The translations under genes and the position numbers were made by a program. A model generated the notes under the pieces. The model saw only the letters and a list, made by a program, of their open reading frames with translations, was not told where the DNA came from and searched no databases. Of a stretch of 27,118 nt of DNA, positions 1 to 27,118 are shown one piece after another (within the stretch, counting starts at the first letter, position 1; each line of letters opens with the position of its first letter). Origin of the DNA: a virus. The DNA is taken from positions 1 to 27,118 of the IMG/VR virus record IMGVR_UViG_3300032296_004527; one strand, 5' to 3'.

Positions 1-881
1 ACCGTCATGGCCCCGCTCCTGTAGAAGTAGTCGCACTCCGTGCCGGTTATAGGCCTGTCGTAGAGCTCGGAGCAGTGAATCTTTTTGTACCTTGCTAGCG
101 AGGCCATCTCGCCGACGATGCGCTCGTAATCGTCCTCGTTCGGCGTCCTGCCGTACCTGTCGCCGTAGGGGACCATGAAAAGCCTGCCGAAGGTGTGGCC
201 GCTAAGGACTGCCCTTGGCCTGACGGTGTGGAAGAGCTTCCTGACGGCCATGACTGGCGCAACGCTTTGCCTCTGGGGATCCTTTGGGGTCGGGAAGTTC
301 CTGTTGGGGTCGACGCCGTCTACCTCCCTGGATCTGGTGTAGGAGTCCGGCGAGACCACGGGCACGAAGTGTATCTCCCTCGTGTCGATGATGGATGTGG
401 CCTGCTCGTCCCTTCCGTACTCCCCGAGGAGGGTCCCGATGTAAGCCATGAGTGTGCCCGTGGCGAGAGGCTCGTTGCCGTGCAGGCAGCCGATGACCAT
501 GACTGGAACCTTCGGTGAGTCGCCCTTGGTGCTCGATATTTTCAGGCAGTGAAGGTCCGTTCCCCTGCTGCTCTGCCCGTAAACGCTGAGCGAGGTGAGG
601 TGCGGCGCCTCCTCGTTCCACCTCTTGAGCTGCTCCACGATCTCCGGATAGCTCAGGTGGTTTGGTACTTTCAGGGTGATGCTGGGTGTTACGGGGCCAT
701 TAGGCTTCCGCTCTAACTGGCTTTCCGCATGCTTTTCGGGCTCGGCTTGCCTTGGCGAGGGGGCGTAAGCCCGTGGATTCTTGGCCCAGTATGCGATGGC
801 GAGCGACAAGCCGAGTGCGACCACGGCGATCCTGATCCTCCAGTCGGGTTTCTGGGTGCCTAGTTCGGTGGTGGCTGTCAT
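1..881 (-). CDS. Membrane-anchored M14-family zinc carboxypeptidase, C-terminal part missing
   Basis: This gene runs off the left edge; 293 codons from its N-terminus are present. Reading from the ATG at 881, an N-terminal hydrophobic segment (about residues 17-32, IAVVALGLSLAIAYW) is followed by a charged, proline-rich linker and then a carboxypeptidase domain. Visible M14 hallmarks are the zinc motif HGNE (H134, E137), the substrate-binding DPNRNF (N193, R194, N195) and the third zinc ligand in SGH (H229). The catalytic glutamate lies beyond the edge. M14 enzymes remove C-terminal residues from peptides or cleave peptidoglycan stem peptides, so the substrate is open. The anchor predicts a catalytic domain outside the cytoplasmic membrane. 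An in-frame TGA two codons before the ATG fixes the start. It is divergent from the gene at 925 and shares the TATATA box at 913-918. It is the first of five peptidase genes in this window. Confidence 0.85.
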   Translation of the reverse strand, partial: MTATTELGTQKPDWRIRIAVVALGLSLAIAYWAKNPRAYAPSPRQAEPEKHAESQLERKPNGPVTPSITLKVPNHLSYPEIVEQLKRWNEEAPHLTSLSVYGQSSRGTDLHCLKISSTKGDSPKVPVMVIGCLHGNEPLATGTLMAYIGTLLGEYGRDEQATSIIDTREIHFVPVVSPDSYTRSREVDGVDPNRNFPTPKDPQRQSVAPVMAVRKLFHTVRPRAVLSGHTFGRLFMVPYGDRYGRTPNEDDYERIVGEMASLARYKKIHCSELYDRPITGTECDYFYRSGAMT

Positions 882-2737: not shown

Positions 2738-3031
2738 CTAATAGTTGTCTTCCTCGTCATCCTCCTCGTCGTAGTCCTCGTCGTCCTCGCTCTCCCAGTC
2801 GTAGTCATCGTCCTCGTCGTCTTCGTCCTTGTCCCAGTCGTCCTCTTCGTCTTCGTCGTCTTCGTCCCAGTCGTCCTCGTCCTCGTCTTCTTCTTCCTCG
2901 TCCTCGTCCCAATCATCGTCCTCGTCTTCTTCTTCCTCCTCGTCTTCGTCATCATCCCACTCGTCGATGTCGATGAGGCAGGGTTCGCCGAAGCGAGGCA
3001 TTCTCCAGAGTTCAACTAGGGCGAGGCTCAT
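2738..3031 (-). CDS. Extremely acidic Asp/Glu-rich protein
   Basis: A 97-residue protein with a normal first 25 residues (MSLALVELWRMPRFGEPC, then LIDIDEW). About 70 residues of almost pure Asp and Glu follow, broken by Trp at irregular 11-16 residue spacing and a few Tyr near the end. I start at ATG 3031, where AGGAG precedes it, rather than the in-frame ATG at 3079, which would overlap the divergent promoter region. No family is recognised. Strongly acidic phage proteins can mimic DNA, bind basic partners or calcium, or act as chaperones or scaffold parts, but nothing here selects among these. The gene has its own strong terminator, so it is probably well expressed. The region is a GAN-type trinucleotide-rich tract that could change length by slippage. 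Coding is likely because start, ribosome site and terminator agree. Confidence 0.7.
   Translation of the reverse strand: MSLALVELWRMPRFGEPCLIDIDEWDDDEDEEEEEDEDDDWDEDEEEEDEDEDDWDEDDEDEEDDWDKDEDDEDDDYDWESEDDEDYDEEDDEEDNY
2745..2960 (-). repeat. GAN trinucleotide-rich low-complexity tract
   Basis: On the minus strand this tract is an irregular run of GAC, GAT, GAG and GAA codons, giving the Asp/Glu tail of the acidic protein. The plus strand is correspondingly dominated by TCN triplets. Its long open plus-strand frame is a by-product of this composition. Confidence 0.8.
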
Positions 3032-3081
3032 GATCTGTCTCCTTTTATCAAAACTGTTAATACATATCATAGGAGACATTT

Positions 3082-3528
3082 ATGAAAATTGGTCATATAC
3101 TCTGCTGCATTTTTATGTTTTTTTCAAGCGGTTGTGCATTCGCACCTTTCCTTGTCAGCCCAATAGTCACGGGCGTTCTGATGTGGAAGGAAGGCGAGGC
3201 GAGGAAGTACTATAAGGACGAGCTCAAGACAATCCACCGCTCCGTCATCTTGTCTCTCAGGGAGCTTGGACACCCGGTTGCGGAAGACAAGCCCAGCAAG
3301 CAGGGCTTCTACATAGTCGCCGGCGAGGGAAGCAAGTTCAAAATCAAGCTCATCAAGGTCAAGGACAACATAACCGAGGTCCGCTGCAGGATAGACTTCA
3401 TGGGCGACAAGCCTTACGCCGAGCTGCTTTACGCAGAGATCGACTCAAACACTGACGTGGTTGAGTATGACGACGGCGGCAGGCCGACGAAGGGAAGGCG
3501 TCGCCTCAGGGACAGGCTGGGGAACTAG
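3082..3528 (+). CDS. Predicted lipoprotein, DUF3568-like
   Basis: A 148-residue protein. Its N-terminus MKIGHILCCIFMFFSSGC is a lipoprotein signal with lipobox S-S-G-C (C18 acylated). Residues 19-39 are hydrophobic. The soluble part, from about residue 45, reads like the small alpha/beta lipoproteins grouped as DUF3568: a helix (YYKDELKTIHRSVILSLREL), a strand pair, then D/N-rich strands. That family resemblance is tentative. The protein should sit in the envelope of a diderm host during infection, for example in superinfection exclusion or spanin-like work, though no spanin features are evident. The ribosome site AGGAG precedes ATG 3082 by eight bases. The divergent gap from the acidic-protein gene is 50 bases and holds only a weak box (TACATATCAT). 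Its TAG overlaps the stop of the convergent metalloprotease in a shared CTAG. Confidence 0.7.
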   Translation: MKIGHILCCIFMFFSSGCAFAPFLVSPIVTGVLMWKEGEARKYYKDELKTIHRSVILSLRELGHPVAEDKPSKQGFYIVAGEGSKFKIKLIKVKDNITEVRCRIDFMGDKPYAELLYAEIDSNTDVVEYDDGGRPTKGRRRLRDRLGN

Positions 3529-5234
3529 CAGACCCTGCGTGACGCCCTGTTGCAGACCCTTACGCCCTTGGACTGCCCGACGTTCAGCCTGGTGTAACAC
3601 CCCGTCTTTGGCGGGGGCGTAGGCGTTGGCGATGCGCAGTCGCACGGCCTTGGCAGGCAGTTCGTTCCGCTCCCGCACTTGACGCAGCCGGCGTTGTTCT
3701 TGGGCTTCCAAGGCTTTTGGTACTCCGGTGCGCCGGGTATGCAGTAGTTTGGCTTGTTGCAGCCGCACGCTGCGATCATGAGCCTGACGAGCTTGCCGTC
3801 CTCAACTGCGAATAGCGCCTTGTCGTCGCCGGAGGCTAGGTTCCTCGCCTCGATCTGGTCAAGGCAGGACATGGCTGCGTCGATCGCCTCCTGCCCTGTC
3901 GTCTCTATCGCTAGGGACATCACGCCGTCCCCGTCGAAGTAGTAGCAAGACTCGTCGGCAAGCTCTACCTCGGCCTGGTACAGCGGGTTTGCGGAAAGGG
4001 CGGTGACGGTGTCAGCAACCTTGCCTCTGCCTGCGCCCGATTTCCTGAGTATCTTGATGTCGCCAGCCGTGTCGATCAAGGCTGCCTCGCCGAGCTCAGA
4101 CAGCATCTGGTCGTATGTCTTAGACTCGAGCATCTTGATGACAGGCTGGATCAGCTTGTAGTCCGTGAAGACCGTACGCATGGTGTTCTGATGCGTGCCG
4201 CCGAGCGATGAGTCCGCCACGAGCATCTCTTGGCAGACGGCGTGCAGGAGCTTTGGCGTCCTGGGCACCTTGGAGACAGAGATGAGTAGGCGATCAATCA
4301 TGGCGTCCCTCGCCCGAAGGAAGGAATCCACTTGGCTTACTCCTGACTTGGCTATCTCCTTCGACGCCTCGACAACGAGGCGGTAGAATGCACCGCTGAA
4401 GACCCTGCCGAAGCTGTGCGGCTCGTTGATGAGCTGGCTGGTCGGGCCGTCGGCTGGCAAGGTCTCGGGTGCGACATAGTTGAAGCGCATGCTCATGTCA
4501 CGCATGCTGCCGTTCTCCTCGGTGTAGCCGGGAGCTACCTTCCTGAGGGACGCACCGACCTCCATCGCTATGCGTGTGACGGGGTTTGACAGGGCAAGGT
4601 TGCCGCCGGTGTCCGAGATCGCACGCTCGACCACATCCCTGTTCATGGTCACAGAGACGAGGCAGCATATGTCTGCGAAGGACTCGTGGAAGGCCCAAGC
4701 CTCCGGGGCCTGCAGGCTCCAGAAGTCGGGACGCATCGCATCGAGATAGGCGTGGCCGAACTCGTGCGCCACCACATGCCTGGAGTCGCACAGAAAGATG
4801 TTCCTGCGAATGCCGTGGTCGGGGAAGTAGAAGAACTTCAGCGACCTCCTGTCGTAGAAGGCGTTTGCGTCCTGACCGGCCCTCGCCTGTAGACTTAGAA
4901 CGGATGCAGCAGCCCACCTTGCTGGTTTTTTTGCCCTGCGGCTCAGAAGGTATACCAGCGTGTCGTTTACAATTTGCCTGAGGGCGGCCGCTTGCTGCGG
5001 GGCGGTCTGAAGCGGGTATCCTCCACCCTTCTCGCCGGTTGCGGACATCGGCCACGCAGTCTTGCTCGGTATCGGCGAGTCGATTATAAGGTTTGGGAAG
5101 GTTGGGTCGATCTTGTATGACTTGTTGTTGCTGACTGGCCTCTTGGGTGCGAGTGCCTCACGCTCATCAATTGCCCCCTGCGGCAGCAGAGAAAGCACCT
5201 GTCTCCGGAACCAACTGATCAATCCTTTAAGCAT
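3525..5234 (-). CDS. Thermolysin-like zinc metalloprotease (gluzincin) with Cys-rich tail
   Basis: A 569-residue protein. The zinc motif HEFGH (H157, E158, H161) is followed 22 residues later by E184 in AFHESFAD, the typical third ligand of M4/thermolysin-like gluzincins. NEPHSFG (H273) fits the transition-state His of that fold. No standard signal peptide is seen: the first 20 residues are amphipathic (MLKGLISWFRRQVLSLLP). The final 80 residues carry about ten cysteines with a PTPTPPP spacer and look like a separate small disulfide- or metal-stabilised tail. The family cleaves peptide bonds on the N side of hydrophobic residues. Virion-associated, envelope or intracellular roles are all possible. 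GGAGG precedes ATG 5234, and the box at 5263-5268 is shared with the divergent gene at 5286. Its stop codon is shared with the lipoprotein gene in CTAG. Confidence 0.8.
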   Translation of the reverse strand: MLKGLISWFRRQVLSLLPQGAIDEREALAPKRPVSNNKSYKIDPTFPNLIIDSPIPSKTAWPMSATGEKGGGYPLQTAPQQAAALRQIVNDTLVYLLSRRAKKPARWAAASVLSLQARAGQDANAFYDRRSLKFFYFPDHGIRRNIFLCDSRHVVAHEFGHAYLDAMRPDFWSLQAPEAWAFHESFADICCLVSVTMNRDVVERAISDTGGNLALSNPVTRIAMEVGASLRKVAPGYTEENGSMRDMSMRFNYVAPETLPADGPTSQLINEPHSFGRVFSGAFYRLVVEASKEIAKSGVSQVDSFLRARDAMIDRLLISVSKVPRTPKLLHAVCQEMLVADSSLGGTHQNTMRTVFTDYKLIQPVIKMLESKTYDQMLSELGEAALIDTAGDIKILRKSGAGRGKVADTVTALSANPLYQAEVELADESCYYFDGDGVMSLAIETTGQEAIDAAMSCLDQIEARNLASGDDKALFAVEDGKLVRLMIAACGCNKPNYCIPGAPEYQKPWKPKNNAGCVKCGSGTNCLPRPCDCASPTPTPPPKTGCYTRLNVGQSKGVRVCNRASRRVC

Positions 5235-7806: not shown

Positions 7807-7814
7807 TATTTAGT
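7807..7814 (-). promoter_or_regulatory. T4-late-type promoter, ACTAAATA
   Basis: On the minus strand the eight bases read ACTAAATA, six of eight matching the T4 late consensus. The TAA in it is the stop codon of the ferritin-like gene (7810-7812). It would start a leader of about 25 bases for the structural gene beginning at 7775. Confidence 0.5.
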
Positions 7815-8244
7815 TCAGCCCTTTCAGGATTTGCCGAAACTCGTCAACGTCTTCCCTGCTGTGCTCGATCTGCTTCTCGAGGAAGATTTCCAGCCAGCGG
7901 GCGTTGACTGCATCCGACATCCGGCTGGCGTCCATGATCCTGTTCGTGTAGTTGTCCACGACCTGCTCCTCCATCTGGAGGGCGGCCTCAATGATCTCAC
8001 GGGGGTCAGACAGCATCTTGAAGACATGGGACTCGACCGTGGGGTTTCCTCCAAGCCCACGAATCATGTCGGAGAACTCCAGGACATGCTGCATCTCGCT
8101 GGCCGCCTCCTTGGCGAAAAGCTCCTTGAACTCGTGCCTGTGCAGGCCAACCACGGCGCTTGCGTGGTAAAGGTAGAAGTTCATGTGAGTCCACTCGTTC
8201 TTGAGGTCGCCGTTGAGGAGCTCGATCAATTTGTCCTTACTCAT
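7810..8244 (-). CDS. Bacterioferritin-like diiron protein
   Basis: A 144-residue four-helix-bundle protein. Diiron ligand positions of the ferritin superfamily are visible: E17 (in NEW), E50 and H53 in EMQH, E92/E93 in MEEQ, and H128 in KQIEH. The final ExxH of bacterioferritin reads QIEH here, so one ligand may be substituted (Q125) or supplied by E127 or E123. M51 in E-M-Q-H matches the place of the bacterioferritin haem-binding Met. The length is close to the usual 155. Ferritins oxidise Fe(II) and store it as mineral in a 24-mer, or 12-mer for Dps. I start at ATG 8244, which overlaps the end of the M28 peptidase gene by eight bases (ATGAGTAA) with AAGGA upstream, so translation is coupled to the peptidase. 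It may manage host iron or oxidative stress during infection, or serve as a virion part. Confidence 0.75.
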   Translation of the reverse strand: MSKDKLIELLNGDLKNEWTHMNFYLYHASAVVGLHRHEFKELFAKEAASEMQHVLEFSDMIRGLGGNPTVESHVFKMLSDPREIIEAALQMEEQVVDNYTNRIMDASRMSDAVNARWLEIFLEKQIEHSREDVDEFRQILKGLN

Positions 8245-9385
8245 CGTCTTTTCCTTCCGAGGGCTTGTCCTCGAATTGCACGCCCTTTTGCCCATGGTCA
8301 TGGTCATAGTTCATCTCGCTGAAAGACCCGAAGTCAAAAGCAGGCTTGATGCCGCTGTTGGCGACCAGCCATGACAGCTCGAAACCGTATTTTGCGACCT
8401 TTTCGAGCCCTTCGTAGTTGAGCTTGTCCGCAGTGTCGCTGGGAGTATGGTAGTACCTCGTGAGGCCCGTATGCAGGAAGGCGACTGGTATTTTCTTGTT
8501 GTAGAAGGGGGCGTGGTCGCTGCCGCTGGAGCCACGCAAGGTGATAGAGCTTGCGAAGGAGTACTTGGTGCTGAGGCTCCTGATCATGTCGCCTATGTCT
8601 GGCGAGCTGCTGCCGTCGTCGAATGCGAGTGTCTGGTTCTTGCCTAGGTTGCCGACCATGTCCATGTTGAGCATGAAGATGTGCTTTTTCAGGTCTGGGT
8701 TGCCCTTTGGGAATATGGGGTTGTTCACGTAGTGGAGACTGCCCTTGAGTCCCATCTCCTCTGCGGAGAAGGCCATGAACACCACGGTCCGCCTGTTCTG
8801 TCCTTTTAGCGATGCGAATGCCTTGGCGATCTCTATGAGCGCCGCCGTGCCCGATGCGTTGTCGTCTGCTCCTGGATGAATCTTGCCACCGCCCCAGCGG
8901 CTCATGCTTGGCCCATACCCGATGTGGTCGAGATGGGCGCCGACGACGACGACCTCATCCTTCACAGACGGGTCGTTCCCCTCAAGCCATGCGTAGACAT
9001 TCTGCGTGAAGTCGTCGCCTATTTCCCTTTTAGGTCCGGGGTTCATGCGACGGATCATGAACTTGTGGTATTCGGTGGGCAGCCCTGCCCGCTCGAACTC
9101 CTTCTTCACGAAGTCGGCTGCTAGCTTGTTGCCGTTCTTGCCGGACATCCTCCCCTCAAGCTCGTCGGATGTTAAATAGGACACGGACTTCTCGAGTTCG
9201 TTCTTGGTGATCTTGTCGAGGGCGTCCTTGACGGTCGGTTTTTGCTTTTCCTTGTCAAGCGGGAGGGCCGGAGGCGGCTCGAACTCCGGTGGCTTCTGGA
9301 TGCGCAAGCCAGAGTCCTGCTTCGTGTACAGCAGGACGATTATGATTACGGCCAGCGTTATGACTAGAACCTGTAGCTTGCGCAT
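8237..9385 (-). CDS. Membrane-anchored M28-family aminopeptidase
   Basis: A 382-residue protein. Residues 4-20 form a single N-terminal anchor (LQVLVITLAVIIIVLLY). A proline-rich linker (residues 30-50) and a helical region precede the M28 domain. All co-catalytic zinc ligands are present: H151 in GAHLDH, D174 in PGADDNASG, the E209/E210 pair in FSAEEMG, D242 in NMDMVG and H313 in YYHTPSD, plus SSGSDHAPF. The domain is therefore intact. The family removes N-terminal residues from peptides and would act here outside the cytoplasmic membrane. The last 30 residues are His/Asp/Glu-rich and could bind metal (NYDHDHGQKG). Its start is at ATG 9385 with GGTGA upstream. The TATATA box at 9413-9418 is shared with the divergent terminase. 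It is coupled to the ferritin-like gene by an eight-base overlap. Confidence 0.92.
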   Translation of the reverse strand: MRKLQVLVITLAVIIIVLLYTKQDSGLRIQKPPEFEPPPALPLDKEKQKPTVKDALDKITKNELEKSVSYLTSDELEGRMSGKNGNKLAADFVKKEFERAGLPTEYHKFMIRRMNPGPKREIGDDFTQNVYAWLEGNDPSVKDEVVVVGAHLDHIGYGPSMSRWGGGKIHPGADDNASGTAALIEIAKAFASLKGQNRRTVVFMAFSAEEMGLKGSLHYVNNPIFPKGNPDLKKHIFMLNMDMVGNLGKNQTLAFDDGSSSPDIGDMIRSLSTKYSFASSITLRGSSGSDHAPFYNKKIPVAFLHTGLTRYYHTPSDTADKLNYEGLEKVAKYGFELSWLVANSGIKPAFDFGSFSEMNYDHDHGQKGVQFEDKPSEGKDDE

Positions 9386-14118: not shown

Positions 14119-15021
14119 ATGTTCAAAAACATTATTTTTTCAGTATCTCTTCTTCTCTTCGGAGCGCCTGGGATGACGCAGGTCATACCCCCAAGCCAGA
14201 GGCAGTTCGCCGAGGTAGATCCCTTCGACAACATGCCCATCCTTGAGAGGGGCAACTACGGCGCAAACGCCAAGACGCCTGTCCCTCAGCGAGGGCCTGA
14301 GTTCCGTAGGTTTCTTGCTCCCTCGTGCAAGATAAGCGTCGGCAACGGCTCCGGCTCAGGGACGATCATACATTACGACGAGTCAAAGAACTTGGCCTAT
14401 GTGGCAACTTGCGGCCACCTCTGGCAGGAAGGAATTGTCGATCAGGAAAGGGCCAAGCGGATGAACATCAAGTGCAAGGTGATATTCTGGTATCACAATG
14501 ACCAGAGACTTGATGCCCCAAAGCAATATGATGCCACAGTTGCTTTCTACAGCTATGTGCGTGGGCAGGACACTGCGCTCGTCACTTTCAAGCCAGATTG
14601 GAAGCCGAACGTGTTCCCGCTTGCGGAGAAGGACTACAAGTACCCCAAGGGCCAGCACGCACACTCGGTTGGATGCGACGCAGGATCCGAGGTGGCCCAC
14701 TACGACATTGAGATGATAGGGCTTGAGTGGGATGACCTAGTGACCATCGGGAACAGCCCAAGGCCTGGCAGATCCGGAGGCGGCCTGATGGACGACAATG
14801 GTCTGTACATAGGGACTTGCTGGGGGACGCAGTACGTGGACGGTAGCGGCAAGGGGTTCTTCACCCCGATGCAGGTCATACATAAGTTCTGGGCAAACCA
14901 GAAGGACTACAGTTTCCTTCTCGAGCAGAGGAAATCTGGAGGTTTCCGCTACAACCTCAAGATTGTGGATCACAGCGGCTCAAAGGAATCGTTCCTGCCC
15001 GAGTATATCCTGCTGCCCTAG
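14119..15021 (+). CDS. Exported trypsin-like serine protease
   Basis: A 300-residue protein with a signal peptide (MFKNIIFSVSLLLFGAPG). The chymotrypsin-fold triad is readable: H100 in VATCGHLW, D151 in GQDTALV and S219 in PGRSGGGL, with the oxyanion-hole glycines before the serine. Between them lie the strands expected of the double barrel. Cysteines near H100 (C98), C119 and C233 may form disulfides. The His context TCGH differs from the usual TAAH or TAGH. It is about the right size for secreted bacterial trypsin/DegP-like catalytic domains and has no PDZ domain. It would act in the periplasm or outside. A late-type box at 14086-14097 and a G-rich ribosome site precede it. The stop is shared with the convergent nuclease in CTAG. 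Confidence 0.85.
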   Translation: MFKNIIFSVSLLLFGAPGMTQVIPPSQRQFAEVDPFDNMPILERGNYGANAKTPVPQRGPEFRRFLAPSCKISVGNGSGSGTIIHYDESKNLAYVATCGHLWQEGIVDQERAKRMNIKCKVIFWYHNDQRLDAPKQYDATVAFYSYVRGQDTALVTFKPDWKPNVFPLAEKDYKYPKGQHAHSVGCDAGSEVAHYDIEMIGLEWDDLVTIGNSPRPGRSGGGLMDDNGLYIGTCWGTQYVDGSGKGFFTPMQVIHKFWANQKDYSFLLEQRKSGGFRYNLKIVDHSGSKESFLPEYILLP

Positions 15022-17171: not shown

Positions 17172-17954
17172 ATGAAAATAGGCATGATAGATGTCCACAA
17201 CCAGAACTATGAGGGTATATACGACATCAGCGCCCCGATTAAGAGGGCCTACTGCCAGAAGCACGGTTACGAGTTCGTGGAATACGTCGCCGATATGCCG
17301 CTTATACCGGAGTCTAGGCAGTACAACTGGAGCCGTGTACAAGGCATCATCTACAACCTCCACAGGTTTGACTGGCTCTTCTACCTTGACACCGACATAC
17401 TGATCATGAACGACTCGCACAGGATCGAGGATTTCATAGACGACAGCTACGACATGGTGGTCGGGCCGCTTCCGAGCGAGGGCCACATAATGACCAGCGG
17501 TATGCTCATTAGGAACTGCAGGTGGTCATACGAGTTCATGCTGGACATATACGCACAGACAGAGTACATCCAGCAGCCCTACTACTCGCCGGAGGGCTGC
17601 GACGCAACCGGCACACCATGCACCGGCGGATACTACTTCGAGCAGAGCTCCTTCCATCACCTGTACGACTCGGTCAAGAAGTATCGAGACAGGATCAAGC
17701 GTGTCGAGAGGAGGCACTTCAACTCCGAGACGAAATCCTACACGCCGGGCGACTTCCTGATCCATTTCCCTGGACAGGTCAACAAGACTAGGCTCATGAG
17801 GGCGATGCTTGAACGTGGGCACGACGCCGTCGTCGAGATGGCATATCCGGTGGACACGAAGGACTACCTTAGCAAAACGCTAAGCGACTACGAGAAGATC
17901 AAGGCACGAAACATGATGCGCAAGCAAAAACTTAACTCGGAGGCAGAAGGATGA
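17172..17954 (+). CDS. Glycosyltransferase, GT34-like (GT-A fold)
   Basis: A 260-residue protein. FDWLFYLDTDILIMN (DTD at residues 73-75) is the metal- and nucleotide-sugar-binding D-x-D of GT-A enzymes. The flanking phrases TSGMLIRNCRWS, YYFEQSSFHHLY and FLIHFPGQ agree with the galactosyltransferase GMA12/MNN10 family (GT34). It would transfer a hexose from a nucleotide sugar to an acceptor. Phage targets could be a virion protein, DNA base or host surface sugar. The C-terminal 40 residues are helical and basic. The gene starts at 17172, 30 bases from the divergent small gene, with GAAGGG as a weak ribosome site. It overlaps the next gene by ATGA. No promoter is visible in the 30-base gap. 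Confidence 0.75.
   Translation: MKIGMIDVHNQNYEGIYDISAPIKRAYCQKHGYEFVEYVADMPLIPESRQYNWSRVQGIIYNLHRFDWLFYLDTDILIMNDSHRIEDFIDDSYDMVVGPLPSEGHIMTSGMLIRNCRWSYEFMLDIYAQTEYIQQPYYSPEGCDATGTPCTGGYYFEQSSFHHLYDSVKKYRDRIKRVERRHFNSETKSYTPGDFLIHFPGQVNKTRLMRAMLERGHDAVVEMAYPVDTKDYLSKTLSDYEKIKARNMMRKQKLNSEAEG
17216..17221 (-). promoter_or_regulatory. Candidate late-type promoter inside the GT34-like gene
   Basis: On the minus strand the 13-base word GTATATACCCTCA is shared with the promoter at 19705-19710. It lies about 75 bases before the minus-strand gene starting at 17141. It sits in coding sequence, so chance is not excluded. Confidence 0.35.
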
Positions 17955-20224: not shown

Positions 20225-21229
20225 TTACTTCGCAGCGGCCTCGGCGGCTATCAGGCAGCCCCGGGCGACGCTGTAGAGCGGGTCGTCTGGCTTGATGATG
20301 TCGCCGATCTTGATCGGCAGGGTGGTCTGCTCGAGCACCTCACGGAACAGGTTGGCGAACCCGTTTGGCGAGCTCGTGCCGCCTGCGATCACGACATCGA
20401 CTGGTGCGTCTGTCCTGACCGTCTTCGTGACGTCGCTAAAGCCCTTCTTCAGTCCGGCGACGGTGTGCTCGATCATCAGGCGGTACTGCGTGTGGATCGC
20501 CCTCTCGACAAGGTTCGTCGGCTGCCTAAGGAGGTCAACCTTCGTCTTCTCCTTGTTGATGAAGGAGACACTCTCGCCGGTCGCCTTGGCTGCCTGGCGG
20601 TCAATCCAGTCGCCCGAGTTGACGATGGCAAACTTGAAGACGGGGTTGCCGTACATGGCGTAGCACACGTTGATCATGCCGCCGCCGAACGACATGGCGA
20701 TGCCGGTGTACGCCTTCTTGGCGAGCTCGGCGTATACGAGTGCCAGCGCCTCGTTGATCGGATGGGCGTCAACCGTGTAGCCGGTCTCGTCTCGGTAGGC
20801 CTTAAAAATGGCGTCGAGAATCCTCTGGTGGTAGTCAGCGTCGGTGTCGACGTTGATTGCGTTTGACGGCACGCAGTAGTACAGCAGGTCGCCGTCCTTC
20901 TTCACGCCGTCGACGAGGCTGTGGATCATGATGCTCATGATCTGGAACGCATCCTTCTCCTTGGGGTTCACGCAGCCGTGGATCATCGGCCTCTTGAGCT
21001 CGAGTGCGCTCATCGTGTAGGTCATGTTGACCGCCGCCTCGCCAAGGGCATAGGCCACGTTGTCACGCTCTATCAAGGGAACGCCGGCCCTCTTCATCAT
21101 GTCGAACACGAACCTGTTCTCGAGCGGCAGCTCGAGGAAGGCGTTGACTTCACGCTTGTAGACGAAGTCGCCGTCCTTGTCACGGTGGCACGAGACCAAG
21201 TTGTATGTTCCGCAATCAAATCCGGTCAT
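20225..21229 (-). CDS. Actin-like ATPase (ParM/MreB-type fold)
   Basis: A 334-residue protein. The actin-superfamily phosphate-1 loop is FDCGTYNLV (4-12). PINEALALVYA (157-167) fits connect-1, and AMSFGGGMINVCYA (178-191) fits phosphate-2, though the usual Asp before the Gly run is Ser180. VVIAGGTSSPNGF (279-291) fits the adenosine motif. The fold binds ATP and often polymerises. Phage relatives segregate or position DNA, as ParM/Alp6A-type filaments do. No adjacent adaptor or centromere repeat is evident; the small gene just upstream could be a partner. GAGGAG lies before ATG 21229, nine bases after the preceding stop. The order is small gene, actin-like, DUF5659-like. Superfamily good, subgroup open. 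Confidence 0.8.
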   Translation of the reverse strand: MTGFDCGTYNLVSCHRDKDGDFVYKREVNAFLELPLENRFVFDMMKRAGVPLIERDNVAYALGEAAVNMTYTMSALELKRPMIHGCVNPKEKDAFQIMSIMIHSLVDGVKKDGDLLYYCVPSNAINVDTDADYHQRILDAIFKAYRDETGYTVDAHPINEALALVYAELAKKAYTGIAMSFGGGMINVCYAMYGNPVFKFAIVNSGDWIDRQAAKATGESVSFINKEKTKVDLLRQPTNLVERAIHTQYRLMIEHTVAGLKKGFSDVTKTVRTDAPVDVVIAGGTSSPNGFANLFREVLEQTTLPIKIGDIIKPDDPLYSVARGCLIAAEAAAK

Positions 21230-21569: not shown

Positions 21570-22514
21570 TTACAGCGTTTTCAAGGCAAACTTGGCCGGA
21601 GTCGGCCACCTCTCGAACATCTGGCGGACAACTTGGCTTATGCGTCCGTCCGTGAGCGTCGTCAGGCAAGGCTTAAGGTCGTCTCTAGTCCTGCTGCAGG
21701 ACTTGTAGTCGTAGCATGGGCCGCACTCCCAGTCGCCGTCGTCGAAGTGTCTCTGGACGAGCAAGAAGTCATAGTGCTTGCCGTAAGTCTTGCCGTTGGC
21801 GAAGGTGAATATGCCGACCAAGGGCTTGCGGAGACCGCCAGCGACATGGAAGGCAGCGGAGTCAACGCTGATCACATAGTCTGCGGCGGCTATGAAGTGC
21901 ATCCACTTGCGAAGATTGCAGCCGTACACGCCCGGAACTCCTGCGGAGTCCAGCTCCTTTATGGGCCTGCTGTGGCTGCCGACAAGGTTTGCGGACCGTG
22001 TGGCCTCCACGACCTCCGAAATCTGGCTGGGCATGAGTGTCTTGGTTCTCACCGCCGAGACGGGTGCGAAGAGCACGGTCGGAGAGCCCGTATATCTCTT
22101 CAAGTCGTCAAGCTCCCGCCTGCACTCGCTGAGCAGCGCCTCATCCAAATTGAACTGCATGTCGTGCCTTTGGAGCTCGATACCGCAGTACAGGCCCCAT
22201 ATGTCCGACCTGTTGAGGGCGCACGACAGTCCATGTGCGTTCTCGTACTTGTTGGCTACGTAGATACATGTTTTGTAGTGCATCATGAAGTCAGAAAGCT
22301 CGACAGTCCTTGCGCAGTGGACGCCTGACAGCATGGGGTGGTCTGACACGACATCCCTGTAGTTGTCGAGGACTGCAAAGTGTATCTCCGCCTCAGGGTA
22401 GACACGCTTCACGTCCCAGAAGAGCATCCTCTGGATGAAAACGTCGCCGAGACCCCCAAGAGGCATCCAGAAAAGTATCCTGTTCCTTCTCTCGCTGAAA
22501 TCACGCAGAGACAT
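21570..22514 (-). CDS. Heptosyltransferase-like glycosyltransferase (GT9)
   Basis: A 314-residue protein of GT-B type. GGLGDVFIQRMLFW (residues 20-33) is the N-terminal Gly-rich loop of the ADP-heptose:LPS heptosyltransferase family. FAPVSAV and YVISVDSAAFHVAGGL followed by KPLVGIF (213-235; D218, S219, H223) are the family's C-terminal nucleotide-sugar site. Family members add heptose to lipopolysaccharide core; a phage copy may modify surface sugar or virion glycans. Cys-rich residues near 270-285 (CGPCYDYKSC) are unusual for the family. I prefer ATG 22514 to the one at 22535, which sits against the terminator T-run. No good ribosome site is seen for either. It is located behind a strong terminator and has no obvious box of its own. 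Confidence 0.8.
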   Translation of the reverse strand: MSLRDFSERRNRILFWMPLGGLGDVFIQRMLFWDVKRVYPEAEIHFAVLDNYRDVVSDHPMLSGVHCARTVELSDFMMHYKTCIYVANKYENAHGLSCALNRSDIWGLYCGIELQRHDMQFNLDEALLSECRRELDDLKRYTGSPTVLFAPVSAVRTKTLMPSQISEVVEATRSANLVGSHSRPIKELDSAGVPGVYGCNLRKWMHFIAAADYVISVDSAAFHVAGGLRKPLVGIFTFANGKTYGKHYDFLLVQRHFDDGDWECGPCYDYKSCSRTRDDLKPCLTTLTDGRISQVVRQMFERWPTPAKFALKTL

Positions 22515-22533
22515 TTGGCCCGATCTGGTCATC

Positions 22534-22577
22534 AAATAAAAGAGTCGGGCCCGACCGATAGAGGCCGGGCCCGACTC
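22534..22577 (-). terminator. Rho-independent terminator of the structural gene at 22593-23171
   Basis: A 12-bp perfect stem (GAGTCGGGCCCG at 22542-22553 with CGGGCCCGACTC at 22566-22577, 12-base loop) is followed on the minus strand by TTTTATTT. It lies 15 bases after the stop of the gene ending at 22593. Confidence 0.85.
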
Positions 22578-24388: not shown

Positions 24389-24693
24389 CCGTCCATTCTC
24401 CTCAGGTACATCCGGTGGATGAGGAATGAACCCTCGCTCACCGACACGTACATGTAGTGCCCGTTCTCCTCAGTGATCGAACCGCCGTTCTTCTTGAATT
24501 CCTTGGCGACCTCGTAGGTGTCGCCATCCTGCGTCTCCATGCGGGAGAGCAGCTTCTTGAAGGGAATCTTGGATTCGACTTTGACGCCGACGAGACGACT
24601 CTTGTCGTGGTCTGACTGATGGTTCATCCACTTCTTGAAGTCGCTGAAATTGAATGGACCGAATGGGTCCTTGTTGTCACTCCATTTACTCAT
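24385..24693 (-). CDS. Unknown small protein
   Basis: A 102-residue protein starting at ATG 24693, which overlaps the stop of the preceding gene by eight bases (ATGAGTAA), the same overlap as at 8237-8244. The N-terminus MSKWSDNKDPFGPFNFSDFK includes an F-x-D-F-x-x-W theme. Then a strand-rich middle (RLVGVKVESKIPFKKLLSRM, then DTYEVAKEFKKNGGSI) and HYMYVSVSEGSFLIHRMYL at the end look like a small alpha/beta domain. Its stop is shared with the convergent gene in CTAG. No function is assigned. Confidence 0.55.
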   Translation of the reverse strand: MSKWSDNKDPFGPFNFSDFKKWMNHQSDHDKSRLVGVKVESKIPFKKLLSRMETQDGDTYEVAKEFKKNGGSITEENGHYMYVSVSEGSFLIHRMYLRRMDG

Positions 24694-25555
24694 TTTTTTC
24701 ACCAACCTTGTTGAAAAAAGAAGGGAAGTCCTTCCCCTCTATGTATTCCGCATTCGAGTACTTTTTCGAGCTCGAGAAGTCATAAAGGTGAAAATCGTAG
24801 TGAGGGTGGTTCTTCAGCCAGTAAAACATCCCGTCCACGATGCCGCTGAGCTTGATGTGCTGTGGGTATGTGTGGAGGCCGTTCTCCAAGGAAACGGAAC
24901 CAGGCCGTCCGGCGTCAAAGCTATCGTCGCAGCAGAATAAGAATATGGATTCGGCGCCAAACCTGTAAGCCAAGCTTATGGATGCGCAGATCGGGTTCCT
25001 ATAGTCATCAACCTGCCATGACACCTCCTTTACGCCAAGCGATGCGTAAGAATTCTCGTTGACTGGGTAGTACCTGTACTTGTTTGTCTCGTACGCAGCA
25101 AGGAACTTGTGGTTCGTTCTCGACGAGGCGATACACTTTGGTAGGTTCATCCTGCGCCGTGGGAGGAACTTTAGGCAGTCTGCGTAAGGGTTGTTCACGA
25201 CATACCAGTTGATCGACCGGCTCTTAACATTCCACTTCTGAAGCGCACCGTTCACTGCGAATATAGTCCAATCCTTGGGCAGGTTTTCGAGAAGTGACTG
25301 CCTGCGCTCGAAGTCGTAGCCGTCGTTGACTATGACCACCTTTGGGAAGAAGAACTTCTCCGAGTCCACCCAAGGCATTCTGAGCATCTTGTTCTTAGTC
25401 TCGTTCTCGAGAAAAAGGAAGTGATCGGATCTCTGGATGGTTTCGTTGAGGTCGATTGACACGACGTTGGTCTTCGTGAAGTCACGCACCCACACGCCCT
25501 CCGGCGTCAGGAGGTAGTGATTGCCGTCTCTGCTTTTCTTGATTCTGGGGTTCAT
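24686..25555 (-). CDS. DUF115/MAF-like protein, probable sugar-cluster enzyme
   Basis: A 289-residue protein. PKVVIVNDGYDFERRQSLLE (about 71-90), WTIFAVNGALQKW and INWYVVNNPYADC show the Rossmann-like strand-loop-helix order of DUF115/motility-accessory-factor-type proteins. NPICASISLAYRFGAESIFL ending in FCCDDSFD fits their later nucleotide-sugar-handling region. This group includes enzymes that glycosylate flagellin or work near sialic/pseudaminic acid pathways; the exact reaction is uncertain. It is separated by one base from the repeat-protein gene (TGACATG) and has no ribosome site of its own, so translation is coupled to that gene. It may glycosylate the neighbouring repeat protein, but that is speculation from adjacency. 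Confidence 0.6.
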   Translation of the reverse strand: MNPRIKKSRDGNHYLLTPEGVWVRDFTKTNVVSIDLNETIQRSDHFLFLENETKNKMLRMPWVDSEKFFFPKVVIVNDGYDFERRQSLLENLPKDWTIFAVNGALQKWNVKSRSINWYVVNNPYADCLKFLPRRRMNLPKCIASSRTNHKFLAAYETNKYRYYPVNENSYASLGVKEVSWQVDDYRNPICASISLAYRFGAESIFLFCCDDSFDAGRPGSVSLENGLHTYPQHIKLSGIVDGMFYWLKNHPHYDFHLYDFSSSKKYSNAEYIEGKDFPSFFNKVGEKNE

Positions 25556-25556
25556 G

Positions 25557-27118
25557 TCAGGATGGGTTGCAAGGCACTATCGCCACGCACTGGGCCTTTC
25601 CGTCTTCGCCGGTGATCTTGGTCATATCGAGGTTGATTTTGACGTCGATCGGCGCACCTCTGTAAACGAGTTCGATCTCTGGCTTATCTGGCAGAACCAA
25701 CTGGATTGCCGACGGAGCGCCTATAAGCTCGATGGCGCTTGGTATACCGACCACTTGGATCTTCTCGGGTATGCCTGTGGTGTCCAGCTTGATGGTTGGC
25801 ATTTCATCAGGCATCTCGAGCTTGATCGTGCTCGGAAGCGACGAGGCGTCGATGCTAATGACCGAGGGAAGATCCGTCGCCTTAAGCTCGATGACTGAGG
25901 GGATGTCAGCGCCCACAATCTTGATCTCGCTTGGGATCGGCGTGGCAGGCCCGATGATCTTGATGTCCGGTATGTTGAAGCTCTCGACCCGAATCACGTT
26001 CGGGATGTCATGAAGAACCTTGATGTCCTGTATCTCAGGGACTTTGACGATGATCTCGCTAGGTATGCCGATCATGTTGCCGTCGATACTCAGCGATTCC
26101 ATAGGCTGATACACACCATCGCTGAACAAGTCTGGAGTCCTGAACGCCGGCGTTGCGGATGGGCACAGCACAGTAACGACGCAGCTAAGTGTCGGCGGCG
26201 ATCCCCAGTTGACGCTTAGCGTCGGGGCTGGTCCGAAGTCAATCGTCGATGGGATGGACGGACCGGGCCCGAAGTTAATCTGGCTTGGAATCTGGGGACC
26301 AGGCCCGAAGTTGATCAGGCTAGGTATCTGCGGCCCAGGGCCAAAGTTGATCAGGCTAGGTATCAGGGGGCCAGGCCCGAAGTTGATCAGGCTGGGTATC
26401 TGCGGTCCGGGGCCGAAGTTGATCAGGCTCGGTATCTGCGGCCCGGGGCCGAAGTTGATCAGGCTCGGTATCTGCGGCCCGGGGCCGAAGTTGATTTGTG
26501 ATGGAATTGTCGGCCCTGGACCGAAATTGATTAGGCTTGGTATCTGCGGCCCCGGACCGAAGTTGATCAGGCTCGGTATCTGCGGCCCCGGACCGAAGTT
26601 GATCTGTGATGGTATTGTCGGCGCCGGCCCGAACGGGATGTTGCTCGGGATGTTGGGCGCCGGCCCGAACGGGATGTTGCTCGGGATGTTGGGCGCCGGT
26701 CCGAACGGGATGTTGCTCGGTATGTTGGGCGCCGGCCCGAACGGGATGTTGCTTGGTATGTTGGGTGCAGGCCCGAACGGGATGTTGCTTGGTATGTTGG
26801 GTGCAGGCCCGAACGGGATGTTGCTCGGGATGTTCGGGGCAGGCCCGAACGGTATGTTCGTCGGGATGAACGGCGCAGGGCCGAAGGGTATGTTCGTCGG
26901 GATGAACGGAGCAGGCCCAAAGGGTATGTTCGTCGGGATGAACGGCACGGGACCGAACGGGATTCCTGGGATGTTCGGGAAAGGCCCGAACGGGATTCCA
27001 GGGACGTTCGGGAATGGCCCGAACGGGATGCCAGGGACGTTCGGGAATGGCCCAAACGGGATTCCAGGGACGTTCGGGAATGGCCCGAACGGGATGCCAG
27101 GAACGTTCGGGAACGGCC
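25557..27118 (-). CDS. Giant proline-rich repeat protein, N-terminus outside the window
   Basis: The gene runs off the right edge; 520 codons are visible and no start is present, since in-frame repeats continue to the last base. N-terminal part: at least four to five 11-residue units of type NVPGIPFGPFP (26949-27118). Then about 20 units of 12 residues, first PFIPTNIPFGPA (three), PNIPSNIPFGPA (six), then QIPSLINFGPGP-type (eleven). The repeats give way near 26220 to a short Cys-bearing bridge (LSCVVTVLCPS) and a C-terminal region (25557-26100) with degenerate IPS-x-I-x-[IL] units every 11-13 residues. The last residues are TGEDGKAQCVAIVPCNPS. The regularity suggests one extended fibre or solenoid, for example a tail or head fibre; this fold and role are inference. 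No known family is recognised. Confidence 0.75.
   Translation of the reverse strand, partial: PFPNVPGIPFGPFPNVPGIPFGPFPNVPGIPFGPFPNVPGIPFGPFPNIPGIPFGPVPFIPTNIPFGPAPFIPTNIPFGPAPFIPTNIPFGPAPNIPSNIPFGPAPNIPSNIPFGPAPNIPSNIPFGPAPNIPSNIPFGPAPNIPSNIPFGPAPNIPSNIPFGPAPTIPSQINFGPGPQIPSLINFGPGPQIPSLINFGPGPTIPSQINFGPGPQIPSLINFGPGPQIPSLINFGPGPQIPSLINFGPGPLIPSLINFGPGPQIPSLINFGPGPQIPSQINFGPGPSIPSTIDFGPAPTLSVNWGSPPTLSCVVTVLCPSATPAFRTPDLFSDGVYQPMESLSIDGNMIGIPSEIIVKVPEIQDIKVLHDIPNVIRVESFNIPDIKIIGPATPIPSEIKIVGADIPSVIELKATDLPSVISIDASSLPSTIKLEMPDEMPTIKLDTTGIPEKIQVVGIPSAIELIGAPSAIQLVLPDKPEIELVYRGAPIDVKINLDMTKITGEDGKAQCVAIVPCNPS
26229..26948 (-). repeat. Tandem 36-bp repeats (12-residue units)
   Basis: About 20 direct tandem units of 36 bp, in three sequence classes (PFIPTNIPFGPA, PNIPSNIPFGPA and IPSLINFGPG-type), all in frame. 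Neighbouring units differ mostly at third codon positions. Confidence 0.85.
26949..27118 (-). repeat. Tandem 33-bp repeats (11-residue units)
   Basis: At least four complete units of 33 bp encode NVPGIPFGPFP-type repeats and run to the window edge. Glycine codons in the GIP part alternate GGC and GGA between units, giving a 66-bp higher-order period. Confidence 0.8.

Follow-up and report, generated by a model that had tools for sequence, protein, structure and literature searches.

A repeat protein of three unit classes at a contig end

What kind of protein is built largely from tandem 11- and 12-residue units, and how did such an array arise? The question is posed by one end of a viral contig, a complete IMG/VR record (27,118 bases) that we refer to as the window. 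Here a minus-strand ORF of 519 aa plus a stop codon runs open into the contig end (Table 1), so the N-terminus of its product is absent from the window. A first-pass annotation made from the DNA alone, which overlooked the minus strand, had described at least 520 residues composed of repeat units in three classes. The three classes are borne out by a listing of the units, by TRF, which recovers the arrays at the DNA level with periods of 33 and 36 and scores of 276–425, and by the residue autocorrelation, which reaches 0.75 at lag 12. Each tandem unit begins at FGP: full and partial copies of the 11-residue unit FGPFPNVPGIP precede a 12-residue class, FGPAPFIPTNIP/FGPAPNIPSNIP, and then a second one. 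The claimed extent holds for residues 1–293, which are strictly periodic, but not for residues 294–345, which contain no repeats, and the ORF itself ends at 519 aa.

Table 1. Coordinates of the repeat ORF, its segments and other genes of the window.
Feature	Position	Strand	Remarks
Repeat protein ORF	25557..27116	-	519 aa; N-terminal (5') end missing; homologues found
11-aa class, residues 1–53	26958..27116	-	One partial and four full units, FGPFPN[VI]PGIP; TRF period 33
First 12-aa class, residues 54–161	26634..26957	-	Nine units, FGP[AV]P[FN]IP[TS]NIP; TRF period 36
Second 12-aa class, residues 162–293	26238..26633	-	Eleven units, mostly FGPGPQIPSLIN; TRF period 36
Non-repeat link, residues 294–345	26082..26237	-	Family motif FGxxPxxxVxWGxPPxxSC (alignments)
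Conserved C-terminal block, residues 346–497	25626..26081	-	~14 degenerate h-P-x-x-h-x-h units; P and I/V/L columns kept in 29 relatives
C-terminal tail	25560..25625	-	xCVAIVPC conserved in the window's subgroup
c1, MptE-like (PF01973)	24686..25555	-	Directly downstream neighbor, conserved beside the repeat gene
c7, glycosyltransferase family 9 (GT9)	21570..22535	-	Pfam 28.8 bits vs cut-off 22; conserved in operon
c3, actin-like protein (Pfam Volactin)	20225..21229	-	E 5e-65; conserved in operon
GT34	17172–17954		Above Pfam cut-off; further from the repeat gene than GT9
Peptidase-related ORF	14119–15021	+	
Peptidase-related ORF	8237–9385	-	
Ferritin-like protein	7810–8307	-	E 3.8e-20
Peptidase-related ORF	3525–5234	-	
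Protein of 113 aa, largely D and E	2738–3079	-	Tandem DNA repeats, period 39
Peptidase-related ORF	3–881	-	

The C-terminal end had been read as a degenerate continuation of the repeats. Its units are indeed weakly periodic: taken alone, residues 346–497 contain P-x-x-[IV] 10 times, compared with 5.1 in shuffled sequences, and 204 of 20,000 shuffles reach the observed count. Across 29 aligned family members, however, the h-P-x-x-h-x-h positions are kept, mostly 11 residues apart, and we therefore regard this block as a conserved part of the protein and not as decay, a status that the earlier reading had missed. Judged from the alignments, the array and its seemingly degenerate end consist of one kind of unit, position-locked at the end and free to change in the array.

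Turnover of the units

Differences between repeat units fall mostly at synonymous sites, and neighboring units resemble each other most; pN/pS is 0.14 and 0.20 inside the two 12-residue classes and 0.35 across all units. The DNA distance between units grows with their separation along the array (r = 0.65, a value reached in 0 of 5000 permutations), in agreement with the local amplification proposed in the first-pass annotation. In other words, the synonymous differences and the growth of distance with separation point to units that were duplicated in tandem and then came under selection at the protein level. A second contig (L002), which is 99.5% identical over 9.5 kb, has the same unit order as the window minus one 12-residue unit. 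Given the synonymous differences, the distance trend and this matching unit order, chance or assembly error is unlikely to be the whole cause of the repeats. Both contigs break off within the 11-residue array, and the unit counts apply to the part that they cover.

A family with constant ends and an array of variable length

Relatives were sought from 2 starting points. The C-terminus as a query retrieved 3 loci and an alignment of the C-terminus 39, so homologues exist; their absence from related phages, together with an unstructured prediction, was what the annotation had named as undoing its reading. Family contigs reach 532 kb, and the family also includes the uncultured phage LR756511.1 (595 kb), which is unannotated in the phage collection and has the repeat gene and gene order of the window family; the C-terminus of its repeat protein is 35–40% identical to that of the window and its array is rich in Cys (PPSFDCISFC). 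Such Cys-rich arrays, often with two Cys per unit, mark a subgroup of the family (repeat genes of L036, L037, L038, L039 and L005); the window array is Cys-free. The downstream neighbor c1 as a query gave 131 relatives, 80 of them retained, and the resulting loci partly overlap with the contigs of the 39-locus set. A readable gene lies upstream of c1 in 64 of these loci, and in 60 a filter on proline content accepted it as the repeat gene; among those rejected, L100 and L111 nevertheless end in the family C-terminus, while in L065 and L068 another ORF sits between.

Full-length relatives measure 608–2049 aa (median 781, stop-to-start estimates) and their arrays alone ~94 to 1554 aa, a more than tenfold range that bears out the suggestion to look for length variation among relatives. 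They share one plan: an N-terminal module (YPxxxDSDxTLF...NGFxxIxxELxYY...CxR..G...HHNQLVDAI), a PKD domain, the proline-rich array, an xVxWGxPPxxSC motif and the conserved C-terminus. The PKD domain is known from the relatives and falls outside the window. Pfam PKD_4 matches 20 of 21 N-terminal regions of relatives (best 9e-6), with the scores listed for repeat gene members below the curated cut-off, and the modeled PKD-like domain superposes on PKD structures with VIA Z values of 8.0–9.0 and an rmsd of 2.2–3.6 over 71–82 residues, a comparison that covers the PKD stretch alone and not the fold of the N-module. The family thus shares with PKD-domain proteins a PKD domain, placed after its N-terminal module, although this accounts for only ~80 residues of the repeat protein.

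A consensus drawn from 972 units in the arrays of 50 distinct proteins reads I-P-[S/T]-x-I-x-[F/I/V]-[G/T]-P; the modal spacing is 11, and most spacings are 10–12. Isoleucine occupies position +3 in 87% of the units (the unit filter itself demanded a hydrophobic residue there), F, I or V position +5 in over 80%, and Ser or Thr follows the proline in 75%. The arrays contain 18% proline, over 30% I, V and F, and very few K, R, H, Y and W.

The window protein gave nothing useful when scanned against Pfam and PHROGs, the C-terminal profile had no match in PDB at E 1, and in sequence searches of Pfam, PHROGs and PDB no match covers the repeats, leaving the repeat unit without a counterpart there. 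The family has no isolate match in the phage collection searched, and the lineage accordingly has no cultured relative in it; tblastn found no relative in bacterial and archaeal genome contigs, and hence no host clue. Descriptions of the repeat family were likewise absent from the mainly open-access literature searched.

In relatives the repeat gene lies in a tail-baseplate gene cluster

The window lacks the N-terminus of the repeat gene and the baseplate genes, and its tail-cluster context is taken from relatives. These keep the order ~350-aa gene, ~770-aa gene, repeat gene, c1 (MptE-like), c2, c4, c6, c5, GT9, actin-like gene, c9, c8. Three related genes thus stand in tandem, with the repeat gene last: hhalign finds its N-module and PKD region homologous to each of the two genes upstream (99.4%, 1.3e-21; 98.0%, 2.7e-13), and the PKD domain recurs in both paralogues. 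In 11 of 11 large contigs a baseplate wedge gene (phrog_219) lies ~7–12 kb upstream on the same strand, and in LR756511.1 the wedge is followed by Tail_P2_I (3e-10), Phage_tail_fib (6e-10) and then the three tandem genes. In the relatives, then, the repeat gene is encoded within a tail-baseplate cluster, which the first-pass annotation had missed along with the N-terminal module and the PKD domain. The N-modules weakly match PHROGs named tail fiber, virion structural protein and baseplate wedge, the best match to a named tail PHROG (6.9e-5) being weak and found in one of 21 members. Tail sheath families (PF04984/PF17482) were matched only in the 532-kb contig, and we therefore do not extend a contractile tail to the other contigs. 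Position and homology make the baseplate-gene neighborhood the strongest argument that the repeat gene probably encodes a tail protein.

Some loci are interrupted between the repeat gene and c1, either by an unrelated ORF of 277–280 aa (L065, 119–952; L068, 650–1492) or by an insertion of ~0.8–1.0 kb (L079, L083, L084 and L114). These are possibly candidate homing endonucleases.

A baseplate-anchored fiber as the best explanation

We favor, with a probability of roughly 0.6, the reading that the repeat protein is a fiber-type virion tail protein of huge tailed phages, anchored at their baseplate. Its attachment, beside the two related proteins encoded just upstream, would be the task of the N-terminal module and PKD domain, and the proline-rich array would form a stiff extended shaft in which each ~11-residue unit contributes a single short beta strand (xIx[FIV]) closed off by a turn at proline. 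By gaining whole units through tandem duplication and by losing them, the array would lengthen and shorten, so that the length and surface of the shaft could change fast while both ends stay fixed. The C-terminal block, made of the same type of unit, may serve as a fixed terminus for trimer registration or for contact, with the oligomeric state, the orientation and any receptor presumptive. Classical receptor-binding fibers are most variable at their C-terminal tip, whereas in this family it is the middle that varies and the C-terminus that is kept, a pattern compatible with a fiber of changing reach or surface, with a tether, or with a ruler. On this explanation a repeat-shaft tail protein is of a known kind, and the novelty would lie in the length-variable array of ~11-residue hP[S/T]xIxh units. 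The sequences would thereby define a family of tail proteins, in a lineage of huge phages, whose hypervariable part is the shaft and not the tip, with a natural series of array lengths for asking what fiber length does.

The annotation had proposed a regular extended fold, either a polyproline-type bundle or a beta-solenoid. The AlphaFold monomer places one 4-residue strand in each 12-residue unit (for example LINF) with a pLDDT of 55–65 and a pTM of 0.34, and the mean pLDDT of array models is 46; the prediction suggests regularity and leans to beta structure over a polyproline bundle, and at this low confidence it proves nothing. A Foldseek search of the low-confidence window model against BFVD gave nothing below 1e-3, which is uninformative at such confidence.

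Known repeat shafts offer partial parallels. In the adenovirus triple beta-spiral and the triple-stranded beta-helices of T4 gp5/gp12 type, hydrophobic residues alternate with turns at Pro or Gly, and the triple beta-spiral of adenovirus and reovirus type has a ~15-residue repeat with two strands. Like these fibers, the window family has a presumed extended repeat shaft between two distinct ends and shows this alternation of hydrophobic residues with Pro or Gly; unlike them, it has a period of ~11, in which each unit is predicted to hold a single short strand, is far richer in proline and has no sequence match to any PDB chain. The modal spacing of 11 and the single predicted strand do not fit a triple beta-spiral. 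The folds of such viral fibers are discussed in PMC4576200 and PMC3386624. The family resembles phage collagen-like fibers in that a probable tail protein carries tandem repeats rich in proline, but the units here, mostly of 9–13 residues and rich in I, V and F, lack G-x-y triplets; the sequence rules out collagen-like repeats, as the first reading had held.

Alternative readings of the array

The main rival is a brush or tether on the tail, flexible or polyproline-like and possibly sugar-bearing, that only spaces two folded ends. Low pLDDT over the array, its high proline content, the scarcity of K, R, H, Y and W, a unit length ranging mostly from 9 to 13 and the differences in sequence class among phages would all suit it. 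The content of I, V and F, however, is unlike typical disorder, and the near-constant hydrophobic positions +3 (with the filter's own demand at that position) and +5, the purifying selection on units and the hydrophobic alternation likewise conserved in the C-terminal block speak against it, so that we give it a chance of somewhat more than one in five.

Less probable still is a combination of a new ~11-residue beta fold with a sugar scaffold, in which the MptE-like and GT9 enzymes conserved alongside would add sugars to the Ser/Thr after proline and the number of units would set both fiber length and glycan count. The possible sugar enzymes noted nearby in the first reading are supported for GT9 and GT34, both above Pfam cut-offs; c1 is a possible sugar-transfer enzyme by its match to PF01973 in 15 of 21 members (best 6.4e-7), the window's own copy being weak (0.068). 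Maf enzymes, a type grouped here with the MptE-like ones and described as O-glycosylating Ser/Thr of flagellin (PMC11339370), serve only as an analogy. Structure would explain Ser/Thr after proline equally well, and we consider this proposal doubtful.

Slightly behind it comes an assembly ruler or scaffold that determines how long, or how widely spaced, some other part of the tail is and is not itself an exposed fiber. Fixed ends around a middle of variable length follow the logic of a ruler, and the gene sits in a tail cluster, yet known tape measures are largely helical and the PKD-bearing paralogues in tandem have the look of exposed parts, which makes a ruler improbable.

That short-read assembly created most of the repeats, an error against which the annotation had cautioned, is already largely refuted and highly improbable. 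Two near-identical contigs do both end in 11-residue repeats and differ by one unit, but differences among units are synonymous and follow position, the unit absent from one contig differs from its neighbors, and full-length relatives from many metagenomes show one common plan.

Other genes of the window

The actin-like gene c3 is kept in the operon in 31 loci, and its product is 65% identical in LR756511.1 and 32% identical in the 485-kb phage LR745208.1; Volactin was named from archaea. Peptidase matches in the window comprise M14 (9.9e-27), M28 (1e-43) and Trypsin_2 (4.9e-7), and the peptidase-like set also includes a 569-aa ORF with an HEFGH motif and no Pfam match. A ferritin-like protein and a short acidic protein encoded by tandemly repeated DNA are listed in Table 1.
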